Below, in pieces: positions 9,949 through 46,897 of a stretch of 64,000 nt of DNA. The stretch covers positions 3,782,001 to 3,846,000 of the forward strand of contig NZ_PHQX01000001.1 of assembly GCF_002803515.1 (NCBI RefSeq). Direction: 5' to 3'. Under the pieces are notes generated by a model. The model saw only the letters and a list, made by a program, of their open reading frames with translations. It was not told where the DNA came from and did not search any database. This DNA is from Stenotrophomonas lactitubi (GTDB taxonomy: Bacteria > Pseudomonadota > Gammaproteobacteria > Xanthomonadales > Xanthomonadaceae). The first letter of the stretch is position 1. Every line of letters begins with the position of its first letter. The position numbers and the translations under genes are program-made.

Positions 9949-10012
9949 TCAGCCGCGCGGGGCAAAGCCGCGCCATACGCGGCGGTACTGCACCCCGGCA
10001 ACGCTGTGATCC

Positions 10013-10083
10013 ATCCACGCATGGCGTGGATCTACGGAAACACCGACGTGCCCAGCGCAGGTAGATCCACGCCATGCGTGGAT
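10013..10083. repeat. Inverted pair of SMAG REPs
   Basis: Two 23-nt REPs of the ATCCACGC subtype in opposite orientation (10013-10035 minus, 10061-10083 plus), 25 nt apart, with their GTAG ends facing each other. Together they can form one long cruciform or hairpin. Confidence 0.85.
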
Positions 10084-10110
10084 GGGGCCTTCCCGCAAAA
10101 GCCACAAACA

Positions 10111-11262: not shown

Positions 11263-11286
11263 AGTAACCGCCTGCGGCGGTTACTG
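11262..11286. terminator. Perfect palindrome over the queF stop codon
   Basis: CAGTAACCGCC-TGC-GGCGGTTACTG is an 11-bp perfect hairpin that includes the queF stop codon (TAA at 11281-11283). It has no T-run, so it may act as an mRNA 3'-end stabiliser rather than a classical terminator. It abuts the REP cluster. Confidence 0.55.
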
Positions 11287-12099
11287 GCGCAGTTCGCGGT
11301 AGGTCGCGGCCGGGGCGGCGATGCCGTGGCTGGCGCGCCACGGGTTGATGTCCAGGCCACCGCGGCGGGTATAGCGGGCCTCCACTTCCAGCCACTGCGG
11401 CCGGCAGCGCGCCGACACTTCGCTGAAGATGCGCTCGACGCACTGCTCGTGGAACTCGGCGTGTTCGCGGTAGCTGACCAGGTAGCGCAGCAGACCGGCA
11501 CGATCGATCTGCGGGCCGCGATAGCGCAGGCTGACGGTAGCCCAGTCCGGCTGACCGGTGACCGGGCAGTTGGACTTCAGCAGGGCGGAGACCAGGGTCT
11601 CCTCCACCAGCGCATCGGCGTTGGCCGACAGGTAATCCGCCTGCGGCGGGCCATAGCAGTCGATATCCACATCAAGGCCATCGATCAACTCGCCCAGCGG
11701 CGACTCGCGCAGCGCCGGCAGCCCGAACGTGACCTGGACCGGGGCACCGGCGCAGGCCGACAGGTCGGCGACGAGACGCTCACGCAGGGCTTCGACACTG
11801 TCCAGGCGGGTGCTGTTGAGCGAGTTCAGGTACAGCTTGAACGACTTCGACTCGATCAGCCGCGGCGAAGTGCACGGCACCTGCACGGTGGCGACGGCGA
11901 CCTGCGGTTTGCCACGCGGGTCGAGCCAGCTCAGCTCGAAGGCGTGCCAGCGGTCGTGGCCGACGAACGGCAGCGCGGCCTCGTCGAGACCGATCTCGGC
12001 GCGGGCGCCGACGCGGGGGATGGGAAACAGCAGGCCGGGATCGTACTGCGACGGGTAACTGACCTCGCGACCGAGGCTGGAATCCTGTGGGGTGTTCAT
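11281..12099 (-). CDS. queF: NADPH-dependent 7-cyano-7-deazaguanine reductase QueF
   Basis: A 272-residue long-form QueF, which reduces preQ0 to preQ1 in queuosine biosynthesis. The QueF motif [10 protein letters not shown] is at residues 84-93, the thioimide-forming Cys is C178 in [11 protein letters not shown], and FHEQC (216-220) holds the conserved substrate-contacting His/Glu. The start [10 protein letters not shown] at 12099 gives the usual length; longer forms would run into the composite repeat upstream. The 3' end overlaps a perfect palindrome. No other queuosine genes are adjacent. Confidence 0.97.
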
Positions 12100-12205
12100 G
12101 GTGCTTATTGTATCGCGCGCAGGGCGGGCCTTCGGCCGGGTCGGCCAACGGCGGAGCCCCTCCGTGGTGGGTGGGTTGGTCGCGTACAGCCGGGATTCTG
12201 GGTTT

Positions 12206-12309
12206 GGCCGGGCGGGGAGGCTGGGCAGGGGGCGCTGCAAGTACGTCCATGTAAGCTCGGTCGCCGCATCCATGCGGCTCACGCCCCTGCCCAGCCTCCC
12301 CGCCCGGCC
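12206..12309 (+). repeat. Inverted module A1
   Basis: Perfect 26-nt arms (left arm begins GGCCGGGCGGGGAGG, right arm ends CCCCGCCCGGCC) enclose 52 nt. The core holds CAAGTACGTCC and an inner palindrome CCGCATCCATGCGG. Folded, it would be a long stem with one or two inner hairpins. Confidence 0.85.
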
Positions 12310-12467
12310 TCTGACAGTTTCCTGCGCGCGGCCGCCACCACGGGAAAGATCAGGAAAATCAAAATCAAAAGCCGATGCTTCAGACGTTCATGACGTCCGC
12401 CGTGTCGACCAAGGTCGACACCTACCAAAGCAGGATGTCGTTCCGACAGCAGCAGGAAACTGTCGAA

Positions 12468-12569
12468 GGCGGGGGGGGTCCGGTGGCAGGGGCGTGAGCG
12501 CCATGGATGGCGCGACCGAGGCTACAGGGACGTACTTGCGCCGTCCCCTGCCACCGGACCCACCCCGCC
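12468..12569 (-). repeat. Inverted module A2 (reverse orientation)
   Basis: Arms of 25 nt with one mismatch (inner 16 perfect: GGTCCGGTGGCAGGGG) enclose a 52-nt core with the palindrome GCGCCATGGATGGCGC. On the minus strand the core contains CAAGTACGTCC and CTCGGTCG like module A1, while the arms differ in sequence yet still pair. Confidence 0.83.
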
Positions 12570-12655
12570 ATCCCACGGATAGCCAGCTTTTGCCGTTGCT
12601 CCGGCTGTTGCCGTTGCCTCGGCGGGTGCAGGGCTGCAAGCCCTGCCGGTAACCC

Positions 12656-13975
12656 TCAACCAGCCGGGGTGCCGCCGCCGTGCAGGTAATCCAGACTCAC
12701 CTGCAGCAACGCACGGAATCCGACATCCAGCGCTTTCTCATCCAGCAGGAACTTCGGCGAATGATTGGCCGGCGCCGTCGCCGGGTCGATGCCCACGCTG
12801 GTGGAGCCGACGAAGAAGAACATGCCCGGCACTTCCTTGGCGTACAGCGAGAAATCCTCCGCGCCCATCTGCAGCGGCGGCTCGTACACGTTGTCCTTGC
12901 CCACCACCGCCTGCAGGCTTGGCAGCATCTTCGCGGTCAACGCCGGGTCGTTCACCGTGGCCGGGTTGCCTTCCGATTCGTAGATGTCGGTCACCGCCTT
13001 GGCCCCGTGCGCGGCAGCCGTGTGATCGGCCACGTTGCGCAGGTCGGCGAAGATCTGCTGGCGCATGCCTTCGTCGAAGGTGCGGATGGTGCCGACCATC
13101 TCCACTTCATCGGGAATGATGTTGTAGCGGATGCCGCCGTTGATCGCGCCGAAGGTCAGCACCGCCGGCTGCTTGGAGAGGTTGGCGCGGCGGCTGACGA
13201 TGGTCTGTGCGGTGCCGATCAGATCGGCAGTGGCCACAATCGGGTCGACGCCGTTCCACGGTGCCGAGCCATGCGTCTGCCGGCCGATCACCTTGATGCC
13301 GAAACGATCGGACGCGGCCATCAGCGGGCCACCGCGCACCGCGATCTGCCCTGCCTGCACGCTGGAGAACACATGCAGGCCGAATACGGCTTCCGGCTTG
13401 AAGTCGGCAAACAGGCCTTCCTTCAGCATCAGCGCTGCACCGCCCTCTTCCGGCGGCGGCGCACCTTCCTCGGACGGCTGGAAGATCAGCATCACCTGGC
13501 CCGGCAGGTCCTTCTTCATCGCCACCAGCGCTTCGGCCACGCCCAGCAGGGTGGCGGTGTGCGCGTCATGGCCACAGGCGTGCATCACGCCTACGGTCTG
13601 CCCTCGGTACTGCGCGGTGGCCTTGGAGGCGAACGGCAGACCGGTCTGCTCAGTCACCGGCAGTGCGTCCATGTCCGCACGCAGGGCGATCTTCGGGCCG
13701 GGCTTGCCGCCTTCAATGATCGCCACCACGCCGTGGTGGGCGATGCCGGTCTTCGGCTTCAGGCCCATCGCACGCAGGCGCTTGGCGACCTCGGCGGAGG
13801 TGCGCTCCTCGCGGTTGGACAGTTCCGGGTGCTGATGGAAATCGCGTCGCCATTCAACCACTTTGGCCTGCAGGCGCTGCGCGGCGGCGGTCACTTCCGG
13901 GCGCTGGGCGTCCTCGGCATGGGCAAGGGCCGGCAGGGCCAGCAGCAGGGCGGACAGCAGCAACGAACGGCGCAT
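12656..13975 (-). CDS. M20 family amidohydrolase, exported
   Basis: A 439-residue metallo-hydrolase of the M20D type (hippurate/IAA-amino-acid hydrolase class), which cleaves N-acyl amino acids. The signal peptide is MRRSLLLSALLLALPALAHA (residues 1-20). Metal-site motifs are RADMDALP (99-106), HACGHDAH (132-139) and the QPSEEG segment. A lid domain follows and the C-terminus contains AEDFS and NHSPKF. The start at 13975 is chosen because it opens the signal peptide; an upstream in-frame start would add 22 non-signal residues. The stop codon lies against the composite repeat. The substrate cannot be read from the sequence. Confidence 0.92.
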   Translation of the reverse strand: MRRSLLLSALLLALPALAHAEDAQRPEVTAAAQRLQAKVVEWRRDFHQHPELSNREERTSAEVAKRLRAMGLKPKTGIAHHGVVAIIEGGKPGPKIALRADMDALPVTEQTGLPFASKATAQYRGQTVGVMHACGHDAHTATLLGVAEALVAMKKDLPGQVMLIFQPSEEGAPPPEEGGAALMLKEGLFADFKPEAVFGLHVFSSVQAGQIAVRGGPLMAASDRFGIKVIGRQTHGSAPWNGVDPIVATADLIGTAQTIVSRRANLSKQPAVLTFGAINGGIRYNIIPDEVEMVGTIRTFDEGMRQQIFADLRNVADHTAAAHGAKAVTDIYESEGNPATVNDPALTAKMLPSLQAVVGKDNVYEPPLQMGAEDFSLYAKEVPGMFFFVGSTSVGIDPATAPANHSPKFLLDEKALDVGFRALLQVSLDYLHGGGTPAG

Positions 13976-14161
13976 CTCGATCTCCACGGAAGGGGTCTGC
14001 ACCTGAATGTAGGGCAACCTCGCCGCTACGGGAACCTCCACCGTCGCCCACCGGTCTGAGCGCCCGTCCCATCCGTCATGCAGGAAACCCGGTGGGCCAC
14101 AGGTATGCTTTGCGCATTGCCACCCGGGGTGCCACCCCGTCCAGCCCTCTTGGAGTCTTGA

Positions 14162-30290: not shown

Positions 30291-30716
30291 ATGTCCGCAC
30301 TTCCCGCTCGTTCCCGCCTGGCCCGCTGGGCCCCGCTGCTGGCCGCTTCCGGTCTGGCTGCGGGTGCCGCCGTGGTCCTGCGCCACGTCAATCCGTATGT
30401 CTCCGGCAATCCGCTGCCGGGCTGCCCGCTGTATGCACTGACCGGCTTCTACTGCCCCGGCTGCGGCAGCACGCGCTGCCTGTATTCACTGGTCCACTTC
30501 GACCTGCCCGGCGCGATGGCGATGAACCCGTTGCTGGTCATCAGCCTGCCCTTCCTGTTCCTGATGCTGCTCAACATGGCTGGCGTGCGCCCGCGCGTGC
30601 TCGATCCGCTGATGCGGGTACTGGCCAGTCCCACGTTCTGGCTGTGGCTGCTGCCGGGCTATGCCGTGCTGCGCAACCTGCCGTGGGCGCCTTTTACCGC
30701 GCTGGCTCCGGTGTAG
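30291..30716 (+). CDS. DUF2752 membrane protein
   Basis: A 141-residue protein with three membrane segments. The DUF2752 core is CPLYALTGFYCPGCGSTRCLYSLV in abbreviated form: the Cys-rich CPGCGSTR lies just before a TM, followed by AMAMNPLL. The first segment (WAPLLAASGLAAGAAVVL) anchors the N-terminus. It ends the CD225-CD225-DUF2752 cluster, a pairing that suggests a shared membrane role. The conserved cysteines might bind metal or form disulfides; this is not established. The composite repeat begins a few bases after the stop. Confidence 0.87.
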   Translation: MSALPARSRLARWAPLLAASGLAAGAAVVLRHVNPYVSGNPLPGCPLYALTGFYCPGCGSTRCLYSLVHFDLPGAMAMNPLLVISLPFLFLMLLNMAGVRPRVLDPLMRVLASPTFWLWLLPGYAVLRNLPWAPFTALAPV

Positions 30717-30775
30717 TTTCCAGCCAACGGCGCAGCCCCTCGTGGTGGTCGTTGAAGGCAGAAGCCGTTGGGGTT

Positions 30776-30879
30776 GGCCGGGCGGGTGGGCTGCGCAGGG
30801 GGCGCCGTAAACCCATCCATGGGGGCTCGGGCGCGCCATCCATGGCGCTTACGCCCCTGCGCAACCCACCCGCCCGGCC
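30776..30879 (+). repeat. Inverted module B1
   Basis: Arms of 26 nt (left begins GGCCGGGCGGGTGGG; one G-to-A change in the right arm leaves a wobble pair) enclose 52 nt with two inner palindromes, CCCATCCATGGG and GCGCCATCCATGGCGC. Confidence 0.85.
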
Positions 30880-31027
30880 ACGGACAATTTCCGTGCGCGT
30901 CCACCACGGAAAAGAAAGAAAAGATCAAAAGCGGAAGCGGATCGCTTCGCTCTGCATCCACGCATGGCGTGGATCTACCGTGTCGACCAAGGTCGACACC
31001 TACCAACAGCCGCCGGAACCTGTCGGG

Positions 31028-31131
31028 GGTGGGGCGGTGTGGGGCTGCAGGACCGTTGGCGCCATGGATGGCGCCATCGAGCCCCCATGGATGGGTTCAC
31101 GGCGTGTACTGCAGCCCCACACCGCCCCGCC
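31028..31131 (-). repeat. Inverted module B2 (reverse orientation)
   Basis: Arms of about 23 nt (inner 20 perfect: GGGGCGGTGTGGGGCTGCAG) enclose 58 nt. Read on the minus strand the core again has GAACCCATCCATGGGGGCTC and GCGCCATCCATGGCGC, matching module B1 while the arms differ. Confidence 0.83.
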
Positions 31132-31153
31132 AGACCCTCAGCAACCCAGAGCC

Positions 31154-31195
31154 GCTTTGGCTTTGGCTTTGGCTTTGGCTTTGGCTTTGGCTTTG
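31154..31195. repeat. (GCTTTG)7 tandem hexanucleotide repeat
   Basis: Seven perfect head-to-tail copies of GCTTTG (42 nt) between module B2 and the terminal palindrome. It is intergenic, so slippage would change spacing, not a reading frame. Copy A has only degenerate TTGCCG-like hexamers at the same place. Confidence 0.97.
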
Positions 31196-31233
31196 GCCTC
31201 TGCAGGTGCAGGGCTGCAAGCCCTGCAAAGCAA

Positions 31234-32121
31234 CTAGGTCACCCAGCCCGCGATTACCAGCACGGCAAGCGCCGCCAGCCACAGCAGCAGCATCCGCCAC
31301 ACCAGGCTCATCGCATCACGCAGCTCGGGTAGCCGCTGCCACACCGGCAGCAGGCCGGCTTCGGTGTAATCGTGTGCATCTTCGCGCAGTTCGGCATTGA
31401 CGCTGGCACGCGCCACCGCGCCCAGGAAACCAATGTCGCCGGCCAAGCGCTCACCATGCGCCTGGCGCCATGCCTTCCAGGCCGTGTCGAAGTTGCCGAC
31501 CAGGGCCATCGAGAGCGCCATCAGCTGGGCCACCGGCCACTCGATCCAGCCCAGCAGCCGCTGCGCCAGCGCCAGCGGTTCCACCGGCACGCGCGCACGC
31601 ATCGGGCTTTCCGCCATCAATGCCAGCAGGCGATAACCGAGCGCACCCACCGGGCCCAGCAGCAGGAACCAGAACAGCACCGCGAACCAGCGCCGCAGTG
31701 CGTTGAGCACGGTCGCCTCGACCAGTGAAGGAACATCCTCGCGCAGGCTGCCACCAGCCGACTGCAGGTTGCGTACCGCCGCCTGCCGGGTCGGCGCGTC
31801 GTCGGCATCGATGATTGCTTCGATGTCGCGGTCCAGATCCCGCGGGCCCCAGCACCAGGCCAGCACGGCCACGCCCAGCAGCAGCGCCGGCAGGCCGAAC
31901 AGCACCCCGCGCAGCAGCCAGGCGACCAGTGCCATCAGCAGCAGTGGCGGTACGATCGCCAGCGCCACGCCGGCGGCCCCCTGCCAGGCCCGACCACCGT
32001 GCGCGTCCAGCCAGCCCAGCCAGCGCCGGAAGCCGTCGAAACGGCGCAGCGACGCGGCAGCGGCCGGGGCGACATGGCCAAGGGCCAGTGCCACCAACAC
32101 GGCGACCAGGGTGGTGAACAT
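31234..32121 (-). CDS. ampE: AmpE-like inner-membrane protein
   Basis: A 295-residue membrane protein with four or five hydrophobic segments: the N-terminal FTTLVAVLVALALGHV, the pair VALAIVPPLLLMALVAWLL and LPALLLGVAVLAWCWG, a central LFWFLLLGPVGALGYRLLAL, and a C-terminal RMLLLWLAALAVLVIAG. The LGPxGAxxYR block and the overall plan match AmpE, the sensor-like partner of AmpD in beta-lactamase induction. No ampD gene is adjacent; the upstream neighbour is nudC, 95 nt away. The start MFTTLVAVL at 32121 is favoured by the AmpE pattern. The link to beta-lactamase control is inferred from family membership. Confidence 0.75.
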   Translation of the reverse strand: MFTTLVAVLVALALGHVAPAAAASLRRFDGFRRWLGWLDAHGGRAWQGAAGVALAIVPPLLLMALVAWLLRGVLFGLPALLLGVAVLAWCWGPRDLDRDIEAIIDADDAPTRQAAVRNLQSAGGSLREDVPSLVEATVLNALRRWFAVLFWFLLLGPVGALGYRLLALMAESPMRARVPVEPLALAQRLLGWIEWPVAQLMALSMALVGNFDTAWKAWRQAHGERLAGDIGFLGAVARASVNAELREDAHDYTEAGLLPVWQRLPELRDAMSLVWRMLLLWLAALAVLVIAGWVT

Positions 32122-32215
32122 GGCAGGTCTCCCTACGAGCAAGCGTTCGGCGTCGCTACCTTACCTGTCGCAGCGCCGCCGTCAGCGGTGAACCGTACTG
32201 TAACCGGCAGCGTGT

Positions 32216-46744: not shown

Positions 46745-46858
46745 CGCCGGGCATGGCCCGGCGCTACCCGGGTGGGATCCGGTGGTGCCGGCCGCTGGCC
46801 GGCAACTTCATGGCCTGCGGAAACCCGTGCACGGTTGCCGGCCAGCGGCCGGCACTAC
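46745..46858. repeat. Cluster of three REP palindromes
   Basis: A minus-strand CGCCGGGCATGG REP (46745-46767), a plus-strand GTGGTGCCGGCCGCTGGCCG REP (46782-46806) and its inverted partner GTTGCCGGCCAGCGGCCGGC (46834-46858, tagged CTAC). The last two form a large inverted repeat with a 27-nt loop between the convergent permease and HAD genes. Confidence 0.83.
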
Positions 46859-46897
46859 CGGGTCCTTGCCCCACGCCCGGCGGGCAGGCGGGATCGA

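Follow-up and report, generated by a model that had tools for sequence, protein, structure and literature searches.

The window, a 64,000-nt stretch of the Stenotrophomonas lactitubi genome, contains two copies of an intergenic element assembled from modules of about 102 nt, in each of which a stem of 25-27 bp closes a junction with two small hairpins. This structured repeat is real and widespread. On one strand both hairpin loops have the form CANGGAY and are approximately 23 nt apart, with A-N-G-G-A-Y set between C and G. As the best reading of the sequence data, we propose that the modules are dispersed, exchange-prone repeats similar to the TwoAYGGAY motif that may act as decoys for CsrA/RsmA; we estimate the probability of this reading at about one half.

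Elements in the window

Copy 1 (12145..12646) is a full inverted-pair element located between queF (11281-12099, minus strand; the protein is 91-93% identical to S. maltophilia-complex records) and an amidohydrolase gene (12656-14041, minus strand). Copy 2 (30724..31226), also a full inverted pair, is flanked by a plus-strand ORF ending at 30716 and by an AmpE/CobD-like ORF (31234-32142, minus strand; the similarity is below curated cut-offs). The preliminary description listed a series of parts common to both copies in the same order. Alignment of 12045-12746 with 30624-31326 confirmed this series: the left flank GCCAACGGCG.AGCCCCTC, the forward module and, after it, GACA.TTTCC, an A-rich tract, GTGTCGACCAAGGTCGACAC, an inverted module, hexamers and GCAGGGCTGCAAGCCCTGC. 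The resemblance might have been confined to the REPs and GC-rich stems; this was tested and is not the case.

In copy 1, the type A end tag CGGCCAACGGCGGAGCCCCTCCGTGG (12142..12167, plus strand), which is also found beside type-A modules elsewhere, is followed by module A1 (12206..12309), whose GGA-loop strand is the minus strand. A1 matches the R1 covariance model and has a perfect 26-bp stem; its hairpin loops on the minus strand are CATGGATG (12267..12274) and CATGGACG (12244..12251). The spacer (12310..12467) is locus-specific and holds the A-rich tract and the SMAG-type REP core GTGTCGACCAAGGTCGACAC (12402..12421, plus strand). Module B1 (12468..12569), recognised by its stem, R1 model match and folding, carries the GGA loops on the plus strand: CATGGATG at 12502..12509 and CAGGGACG at 12525..12532. 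Then follow degenerate hexanucleotide repeats (12586..12618, plus strand) and the type B end palindrome (12628..12646).

Copy 2 begins with the type A end tag GCCAACGGCGCAGCCCCTCGTGG (30723..30745, plus strand). Its modules A2 (30776..30879, GGA loops on the minus strand) and B2 (31028..31131, GGA loops on the plus strand) were recognised by the same three features, and all four loops are CATGGATG (30814..30821 and 30837..30844 on the minus strand, 31063..31070 and 31086..31093 on the plus strand). The SMAG-type REP core is at 30980..30999 (plus strand), GCTTTG hexanucleotide repeats are at 31154..31197 (plus strand), and the type B end palindrome is at 31208..31226.

The terminal palindrome is indeed identical in the two copies, with exact 19-mers on the plus strand at 12628 and 31208; a search of both strands with at most 3 mismatches yielded 5 matches versus 0.07 expected by shuffling. 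The REP inside both copies was upheld as well (cores at 12402 and 30980; 4 matches versus 0.02 expected), and so was the position of the right ends next to minus-strand stop codons: the ORFs end at 12656 and 31234, at distances of 9 and 7 bases. Two other regions of the window, 10010-10086 and 46774-46866, contain inverted REP-like pairs without modules. At full threshold, no Rfam family was found at the window elements, and two tRNAs were found elsewhere.

Structure of the module

A stem search in 30 loci and the window revealed stems of 25-27 bp enclosing an apex that is mostly 52 nt long. We denote the long stem P1 and the two hairpins P2 and P3. In the window, 26/26 and 26/28 positions of the stems are paired in copy 1, and 26/27 and 24/26 in copy 2, which is more than chance would give. 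The fold of A1 has an energy of -84.6 kcal/mol (z -8.7). When the GGA strand is folded, both GGA loops are open in three of the four window modules; the apex of B1 (12468-12569) is rearranged in the minimum-energy fold.

Each composite of about 500 bp is real, as had been described, but the unit is not the composite itself: it is a pair of oppositely oriented half-elements. As read among the matches listed, the type A half-element has the tag CCAACGGC..AGCCCCTCG and P1 beginning with GGCCGGGCGGG, and the type B half-element has the palindrome GCAGGGC..GCCCTGC, hexamers and P1 beginning with GGCGGGG.

For the analysis of covariation, 50 modules of the same genome were aligned (47 distinct rows), and pairs were counted for a hand-drawn structure, which was itself read from these sequences. 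In the 47 distinct modules, 98.1% of the cells are paired, 25 out of 40 pairs have changed on both sides, and the covariation score is 0.441 versus 0.124 for shuffled data. If the partners are slid by 1-3 columns, only 38-46% of the cells are paired and the score falls to 0.02-0.06. For 32 modules from three bacterial families, the corresponding values are 94.5% paired cells, 31 of 37 pairs, and a score of 0.736 versus 0.165 shuffled. The stems contain very few G.U pairs. At the level of sequence, the earlier suggestion of a structured RNA is thus well supported by the compensatory changes in the module stems.

Some modules have an enlarged P2 or P3, with up to approximately 100 nt of extra hairpins: L133 and L136 at the queF site, and the partner modules at C2:142164 and C1:224771 of the S. 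lactitubi genome. Several of the enlarged hairpins again carry AGGAC or GTCCT apices.

Copy number and genomic context

The preliminary description reported an element present twice. This holds for the window alone, which shows two of at least 99 places in the genome (G000; 4.87 Mb, six contigs). BLAST with copy 1 produced at least 123 matching pieces in this genome (40 of 213 candidates scored). The R1 covariance model of the module produced at least 149 matches (149 of the 150 candidates scored) at no fewer than 99 places, and this count is a floor because only 150 candidates were scored. In all 50 of the covariance-model places with two modules, the relative orientation is the same. A script requiring a stem and loops, whose pattern itself demanded TCC and T, identified 156 modules without overlapping hits (167 raw) in 354 kb including the window. 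By the script, 57 places are inverted pairs, again all 57 in one orientation, and 42 of the 99 places have a single module; the latter number is an upper bound, as at least two of the singles (C1:224771 and C2:142164) have an enlarged partner missed by the script. A search with five patterns, each with up to one mismatch, placed a REP core between the modules in 42 of the 57 pairs.

According to our own codon-score gene finder, the predicted neighbours of the 99 places are convergent in 40 cases, co-directional in 49 and divergent in 10. On the side of the end tag, the module starts 35-147 bp past the stop codon of the facing gene in 98 cases out of 100. For the 42 single modules, the neighbour points to the module in 29 cases on each side; therefore both strands are equally often in the 3'-UTR sense, and there is no preference for the GGA strand.

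Distribution in other genomes

Matches to the R1 covariance model were observed in 23 of 41 genomes: 20 of the 25 genomes of the genus, among them the one considered here, and three genomes of two other families. The five remaining genomes of the genus have no module matches by this model. In the genomes of the two other families (G030, G040, G038), the stems differ and the apex is identical (30 of 87 matches). A second model was built on the other strand from A3, an alignment of 32 modules of three families. With no more than 16 candidates scored in each genome, it matched 67 of 250 genomes and 21 of 77 genera in the order; in the class, with a limit of 10 candidates per genome, it matched 75 of the 369 genomes sampled and 67 of 271 genera. 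The two samples have a few genomes in common. Among the best-scoring matches, all 31 distant modules have two CANGGA loops spaced by 23 nt (30 modules) or 24 nt (one module). The same 31 modules, the best rather than average matches, have differing stems with 23-24 of the 24 pairs formed.

Short tandem repeats, among them CACCGTCT and GCGTCAC, lie downstream of several modules in family f7 (L243, L247, L248, L251, L258); these repeats resemble the flanking hexamers in Stenotrophomonas. The distant modules in L301, L302, L310, L311, L314, L316 and L319 were seen by eye to lie between longer inverted repeats, e.g. GTTCCGAAT..ATTCGGAAC, as if other mobile elements carried them.

Phage or plasmid origin was rejected: searches of 50,697 phage and 72,556 plasmid records gave no DNA match, and a narrow apex pattern had no match in viral contigs.

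Exchange of modules at orthologous sites

Out of 80 named queF loci, 46 have the amidohydrolase gene upstream of queF. Intergenic regions shorter than 1,100 bp were compared where the amidohydrolase gene had more than 86% identity. The element, whole or altered, was present in all 15 loci of the S. maltophilia complex; in S. rhizophila-type relatives the region differs, is short in most cases and lacks the element. Thus close relatives retain the same element, and unrelated sequences at orthologous loci, the other outcome that could have overturned the initial description, were not observed there. In L139 and L140 a deletion at a 9-bp repeat extends from inside the first module through the first codons of queF, and hence these loci were rejected as short queF sites; the deletion is either a real loss or a sequencing artefact at the hairpins. 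A Stenotrophomonas-type queF region (79% identity) also occurs in L148, a record titled Bacillus subtilis SK7B5, which looks mislabelled or contaminated.

At ampE, most close relatives with both modules have a gap of about 470-550 bp between the neighbouring ends. In the more distant loci L221-L231, the gap is 10-78 bp in seven cases out of 11 and 154-873 bp in four. One module at this site, in L214, combines arms from two variants, which meet at the loop.

Each module was compared with its positional counterpart in S. lactitubi and with all the remaining modules of that genome. A paralogue was closer by at least 0.05 identity in 12/13 cases for queF module A, 13/14 for queF module B, 8/10 for ampE module A and 0/7 for ampE module B. 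The choice among approximately 156 paralogues inflates the best paralogue, yet gaps such as 0.66 versus 0.98 are still large. The spacers behave differently. At queF, spacer identity is 0.80-0.92 across 97% or more of the length in 10 of 14 loci, exceeding the best of 55 paralogous S. lactitubi spacers (identity x coverage 0.72); the other four give poorer or incomplete matches. Of 18 ampE loci, 10 have values of 0.79-0.87 (identity x coverage), with 0.79 for the best paralogous spacer, and eight are lower or have no element. Hence the modules were exchanged more than their surroundings, clearly at queF and more weakly at ampE.

GGA loops and CsrA

In A3, 31 of 32 rows contain two CANGGAYG sequences 23-25 nt apart; the second loop of L234 is CAGGGAAG. 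Between families, the stems vary and the GGA loops are nearly invariant, with the N position free. The SELEX consensus of CsrA is given as RUACARGGAUGU, and a hexaloop ANGGAN with variable N is described; a CsrA dimer bridges two sites 10-63 nt apart, the optimum being above 18 nt (all according to PMC7652899). The modules contain such a GGA in ANGGAN-type loops at two sites within this range, and can be placed by sequence among candidate CsrA/RsmA-binding RNAs. The exact SELEX 12-mer occurs 10 times in G030 and seven times in G040, and 16 of these 17 occurrences are inside modules by coordinates; it is present in seven of the 31 distant modules (best-scoring matches). The S. lactitubi genome lacks it, and seven further genomes searched have two. 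The reversed pattern had no match in all ten genomes. In S. lactitubi, GGA is followed by C instead of U in 89 out of 150 first loops (overlapping hits included).

Among P1 mismatches, distinct G.U events are commoner on the GGA strand than on the other one, by 67:21 (68:22 before removal of overlaps), although the scoring of the script favoured the other strand. This corresponds to p of about 1e-6 if the events are independent; they were deduplicated by local sequence, yet are not fully independent. The ratio shows a clear excess in S. lactitubi (49:12) and in f7/f4 (10:2); it is 16:8 in other Stenotrophomonas loci (p 0.15, not significant). The count of 8:0 in the distant modules was left out, because the model used there favours the GGA strand. 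A bias of the same sign would come from mutational bias caused by transcription of the GGA strand.

CsrA was found in 39 of 41 genomes: 37 have one copy, two have two or three, and two have none. It is also present in genomes without modules. With one copy in 37 of 41 genomes, its copy number was rejected as the cause of presence or absence of modules. The CsrA/RsmA protein of S. lactitubi has R44.

Mobility and origin

That the element may be non-autonomous and mobile, as initially suggested, is plausible on indirect grounds (the copy number, patchy presence, a module within a gene and module replacement), but no transposase could be assigned to it. The half-elements have end tags. Target duplications, which might have been expected, were not seen on visual inspection of queF, ampE and the dnaE2-like site considered below, and no clean empty sites with target duplications were found for the two window copies, since the outgroup intergenic regions are too different to be read.

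A gene of G040 which, judging from its translation, we take to be dnaE2-like contains a module in frame. The same gene has no module in the six genomes aligned (G030, G073, G216, G065, G085, G133), and it was also matched in G113; because the linker is variable, exact ends and any duplication are unreadable. In G133 (L334), the linker that holds the module in G040 contains another palindromic stretch.

Modules were absent from all nine Y1-transposase loci considered (five from S. lactitubi, four from three other genomes), and in these nine loci no copies flank the RAYT/Y1 gene in the manner of REPtrons or TIRYTs. As Y1 genes do not track the modules cleanly and the nine loci lack them, a RAYT/Y1 transposase was rejected as the driver.

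Possible function

RNA of one strand of a module would form a long stem, a junction and two hairpins with CANGGAY loops 23-25 nt apart, which a CsrA/RsmA dimer could bridge. Paired modules face each other, and therefore a transcript from either direction would carry one module with GGA loops. By binding RsmA, module RNAs derived from read-through or 3'-UTRs might titrate (or tether) it. The modules themselves would spread and homogenise as repeats; they lie scattered between genes, often together with REPs, and are replaced at individual sites by other family members. Such decoys are consistent with the covariation, the loops and their spacing, the SELEX matches, the strand bias of G.U pairs, the presence of CsrA with R44, the alignment with the TwoAYGGAY family (see below) and the module replacement. 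On the other hand, there is no preference in gene orientation, a simple scan found no promoter-like sites in either window copy, the apex of B1 is rearranged in the minimum-energy fold, and the SELEX 12-mer is missing from the genome itself, where most first loops have C after GGA, and CsrA occurs in genomes without modules too. The similarity of the opposite, TCC strand to the sRNA Ysr224 also argues against decoys, as that strand may be transcribed somewhere. Finally, the length and perfection of the stems go far beyond the needs of CsrA hairpins, and a DNA-level process may maintain such stems. A more ambitious form of the decoy reading, which the sequences make conceivable and which we regard as doubtful, is that CsrA/RsmA decoys, dispersed and exchangeable, occur throughout Gammaproteobacteria as one family, and that in a genome like this one more than 150 modules (more than 300 GGA hairpins) would serve as a distributed sponge replacing an sRNA of the CsrB/RsmZ type, the inverted pairs acting on read-through from either flanking gene.

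One alternative is a selfish palindromic repeat, whose junction and loops are recognised by an enzyme of single-stranded DNA mobility (cf. RAYT/HUH on REPs); the likeness to CsrA sites would then be incidental, and the RNA would have no cellular role. The high copy number and the module inside a gene fit this, as does the patchy distribution in the genus, where two of the five genomes without modules (G016, G018) also have no Y1 match. So do the REP cores between most paired modules and the resemblance of inverted pairs to REP dimers as described in PMC3733652. The Y1 data point in the opposite direction: apart from the nine loci without modules, G004, G007 and G024 have two Y1 genes each and no modules by the R1 model. 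Moreover, recognition of single-stranded DNA need not favour G.U pairs on one strand, and the second loop position is free exactly where CsrA accepts any base. We consider this explanation unlikely, although it has to be taken seriously. The stability of the folds agrees also with a two-way device resembling BIMEs/REPs, in which hairpins past stop codons terminate transcription or shield 3' ends of mRNA from exonucleases on either strand. The excess of convergent over divergent predicted neighbours (40 versus 10 of 99) and the start of the module 35-147 bp past the facing stop codon on the end-tag side (98 of 100 cases) are in its favour. It leaves unexplained the conserved CANGGAY loops at 23-nt spacing in stems of free sequence, and the 10 places between divergent genes; further, no terminator-like sites were found in copy 1, and none of the three in copy 2 (0.7 expected) is at a module stem. 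This makes it an improbable account of the modules.

It might even be that the feature exists only at the DNA level: gene conversion and template-switch repair would copy one arm to the other, and the covariation would reflect mutation rather than selection on RNA. The exchange of modules between loci, the L214 module with its arms of two variants and the scarcity of G.U pairs are all compatible with that. Arm copying, however, should not distinguish between bases, yet across families GGA is conserved and N is free; nor does this explanation predict the strand bias of G.U pairs. We find it very improbable.

Comparison with known systems

The decoy sRNAs CsrB/CsrC and RsmX/Y/Z contain several GGA hairpins per RNA. 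The modules resemble them in having GGA hairpins spaced for bridging by a dimer, following the spacing rule in PMC7652899. In contrast, these sRNAs are genes at one or few loci, whereas the modules are scattered over about 100 places and have two hairpins each, or more in some cases. PMC7694677 states that these sRNAs have no homologue in Xanthomonas.

Like the SMAG/GTAG REPs and REP dimers described in PMC2613905 and PMC3733652, the modules are palindromes scattered between genes, and inverted pairs are frequent in both. For Stenotrophomonas REPs, loci where one repeat has taken the place of another have been reported (PMC2613905). However, a module of about 102 nt with a three-way structure, no GTAG tag and unrelated sequence is not a GTAG-tagged palindrome of 20-40 bp; the REPs inside the copies are of the SMAG type. 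YPAL of Yersinia, as presented in PMC2267715, was also considered as a likeness.

Assignment to a known Rfam family at full threshold was rejected, and TwoAYGGAY was matched by modules from other genomes and by the best S. lactitubi module. A lax search with copy 1 yielded mostly miRNA-like hairpin noise and weak matches to Ysr224 and other sRNAs. The apex of the Yersinia sRNA Ysr224 (RF02770) aligns to the TCC strand of a module over the whole model; the matches in L001, L002, L247, L300, L315 and L343 score 17.5-41.2 bits, below the cut-off of 70. Given these alignments, Ysr224 and TwoAYGGAY may be two strands of one element.

TwoAYGGAY (RF01731) is listed for human gut, gamma-Proteobacteria and Clostridiales (Weinberg et al. 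2010, PMC2864571), and PMC4333381 proposed that it binds CsrA, validation being described there as in progress; hence both the RNA motif and the CsrA idea are already known. Like the module, it has a closing stem and two adjacent hairpins with A-N-GGA-Y loops. RF01731 aligns at full length to the GGA strand, with its two AYGGAY loops on both module hairpins, scoring 44.0 bits in L312 (cut-off 43), 40.6 in L315 and 34.7 in L247. The S. lactitubi genome has 13 matches at E<=1, the best, a module, with 40.4 bits; being below the curated gathering score of 43, its modules are not filed as members of RF01731, although they do have the hairpins within a closing stem. In the genome search, G040 has five matches above the cut-off, G030 three and G332 one, which may be the modules there; 14 control genomes have none. 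This search is incompletely sensitive and does not fit the list of modules cleanly, because G626 has no match though its L312 passes in cmscan, and G004 and G018, both without modules by our models, have weak ones (37-39 bits at best). The second loop position is Y in 65 of 147 distinct S. lactitubi modules in the first loop and in 145 of 147 in the second; the first loop has G or A in place of the Y of TwoAYGGAY in 82 of 147. Two strict CAYGGAY loops are present in six of the 31 distant modules. We think that the S. lactitubi modules may work like TwoAYGGAY. In the open-licence literature searched, we found no report of a TwoAYGGAY-like motif as a high-copy inverted-pair repeat, and none of the titles and beginnings of abstracts listed there connects Stenotrophomonas repeats with TwoAYGGAY or CsrA. 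In the passages of PMC2864571 and PMC4333381 devoted to it, TwoAYGGAY is a candidate RNA and not a repeat, whereas the module described here is a repeat present in high copy number and in inverted pairs.
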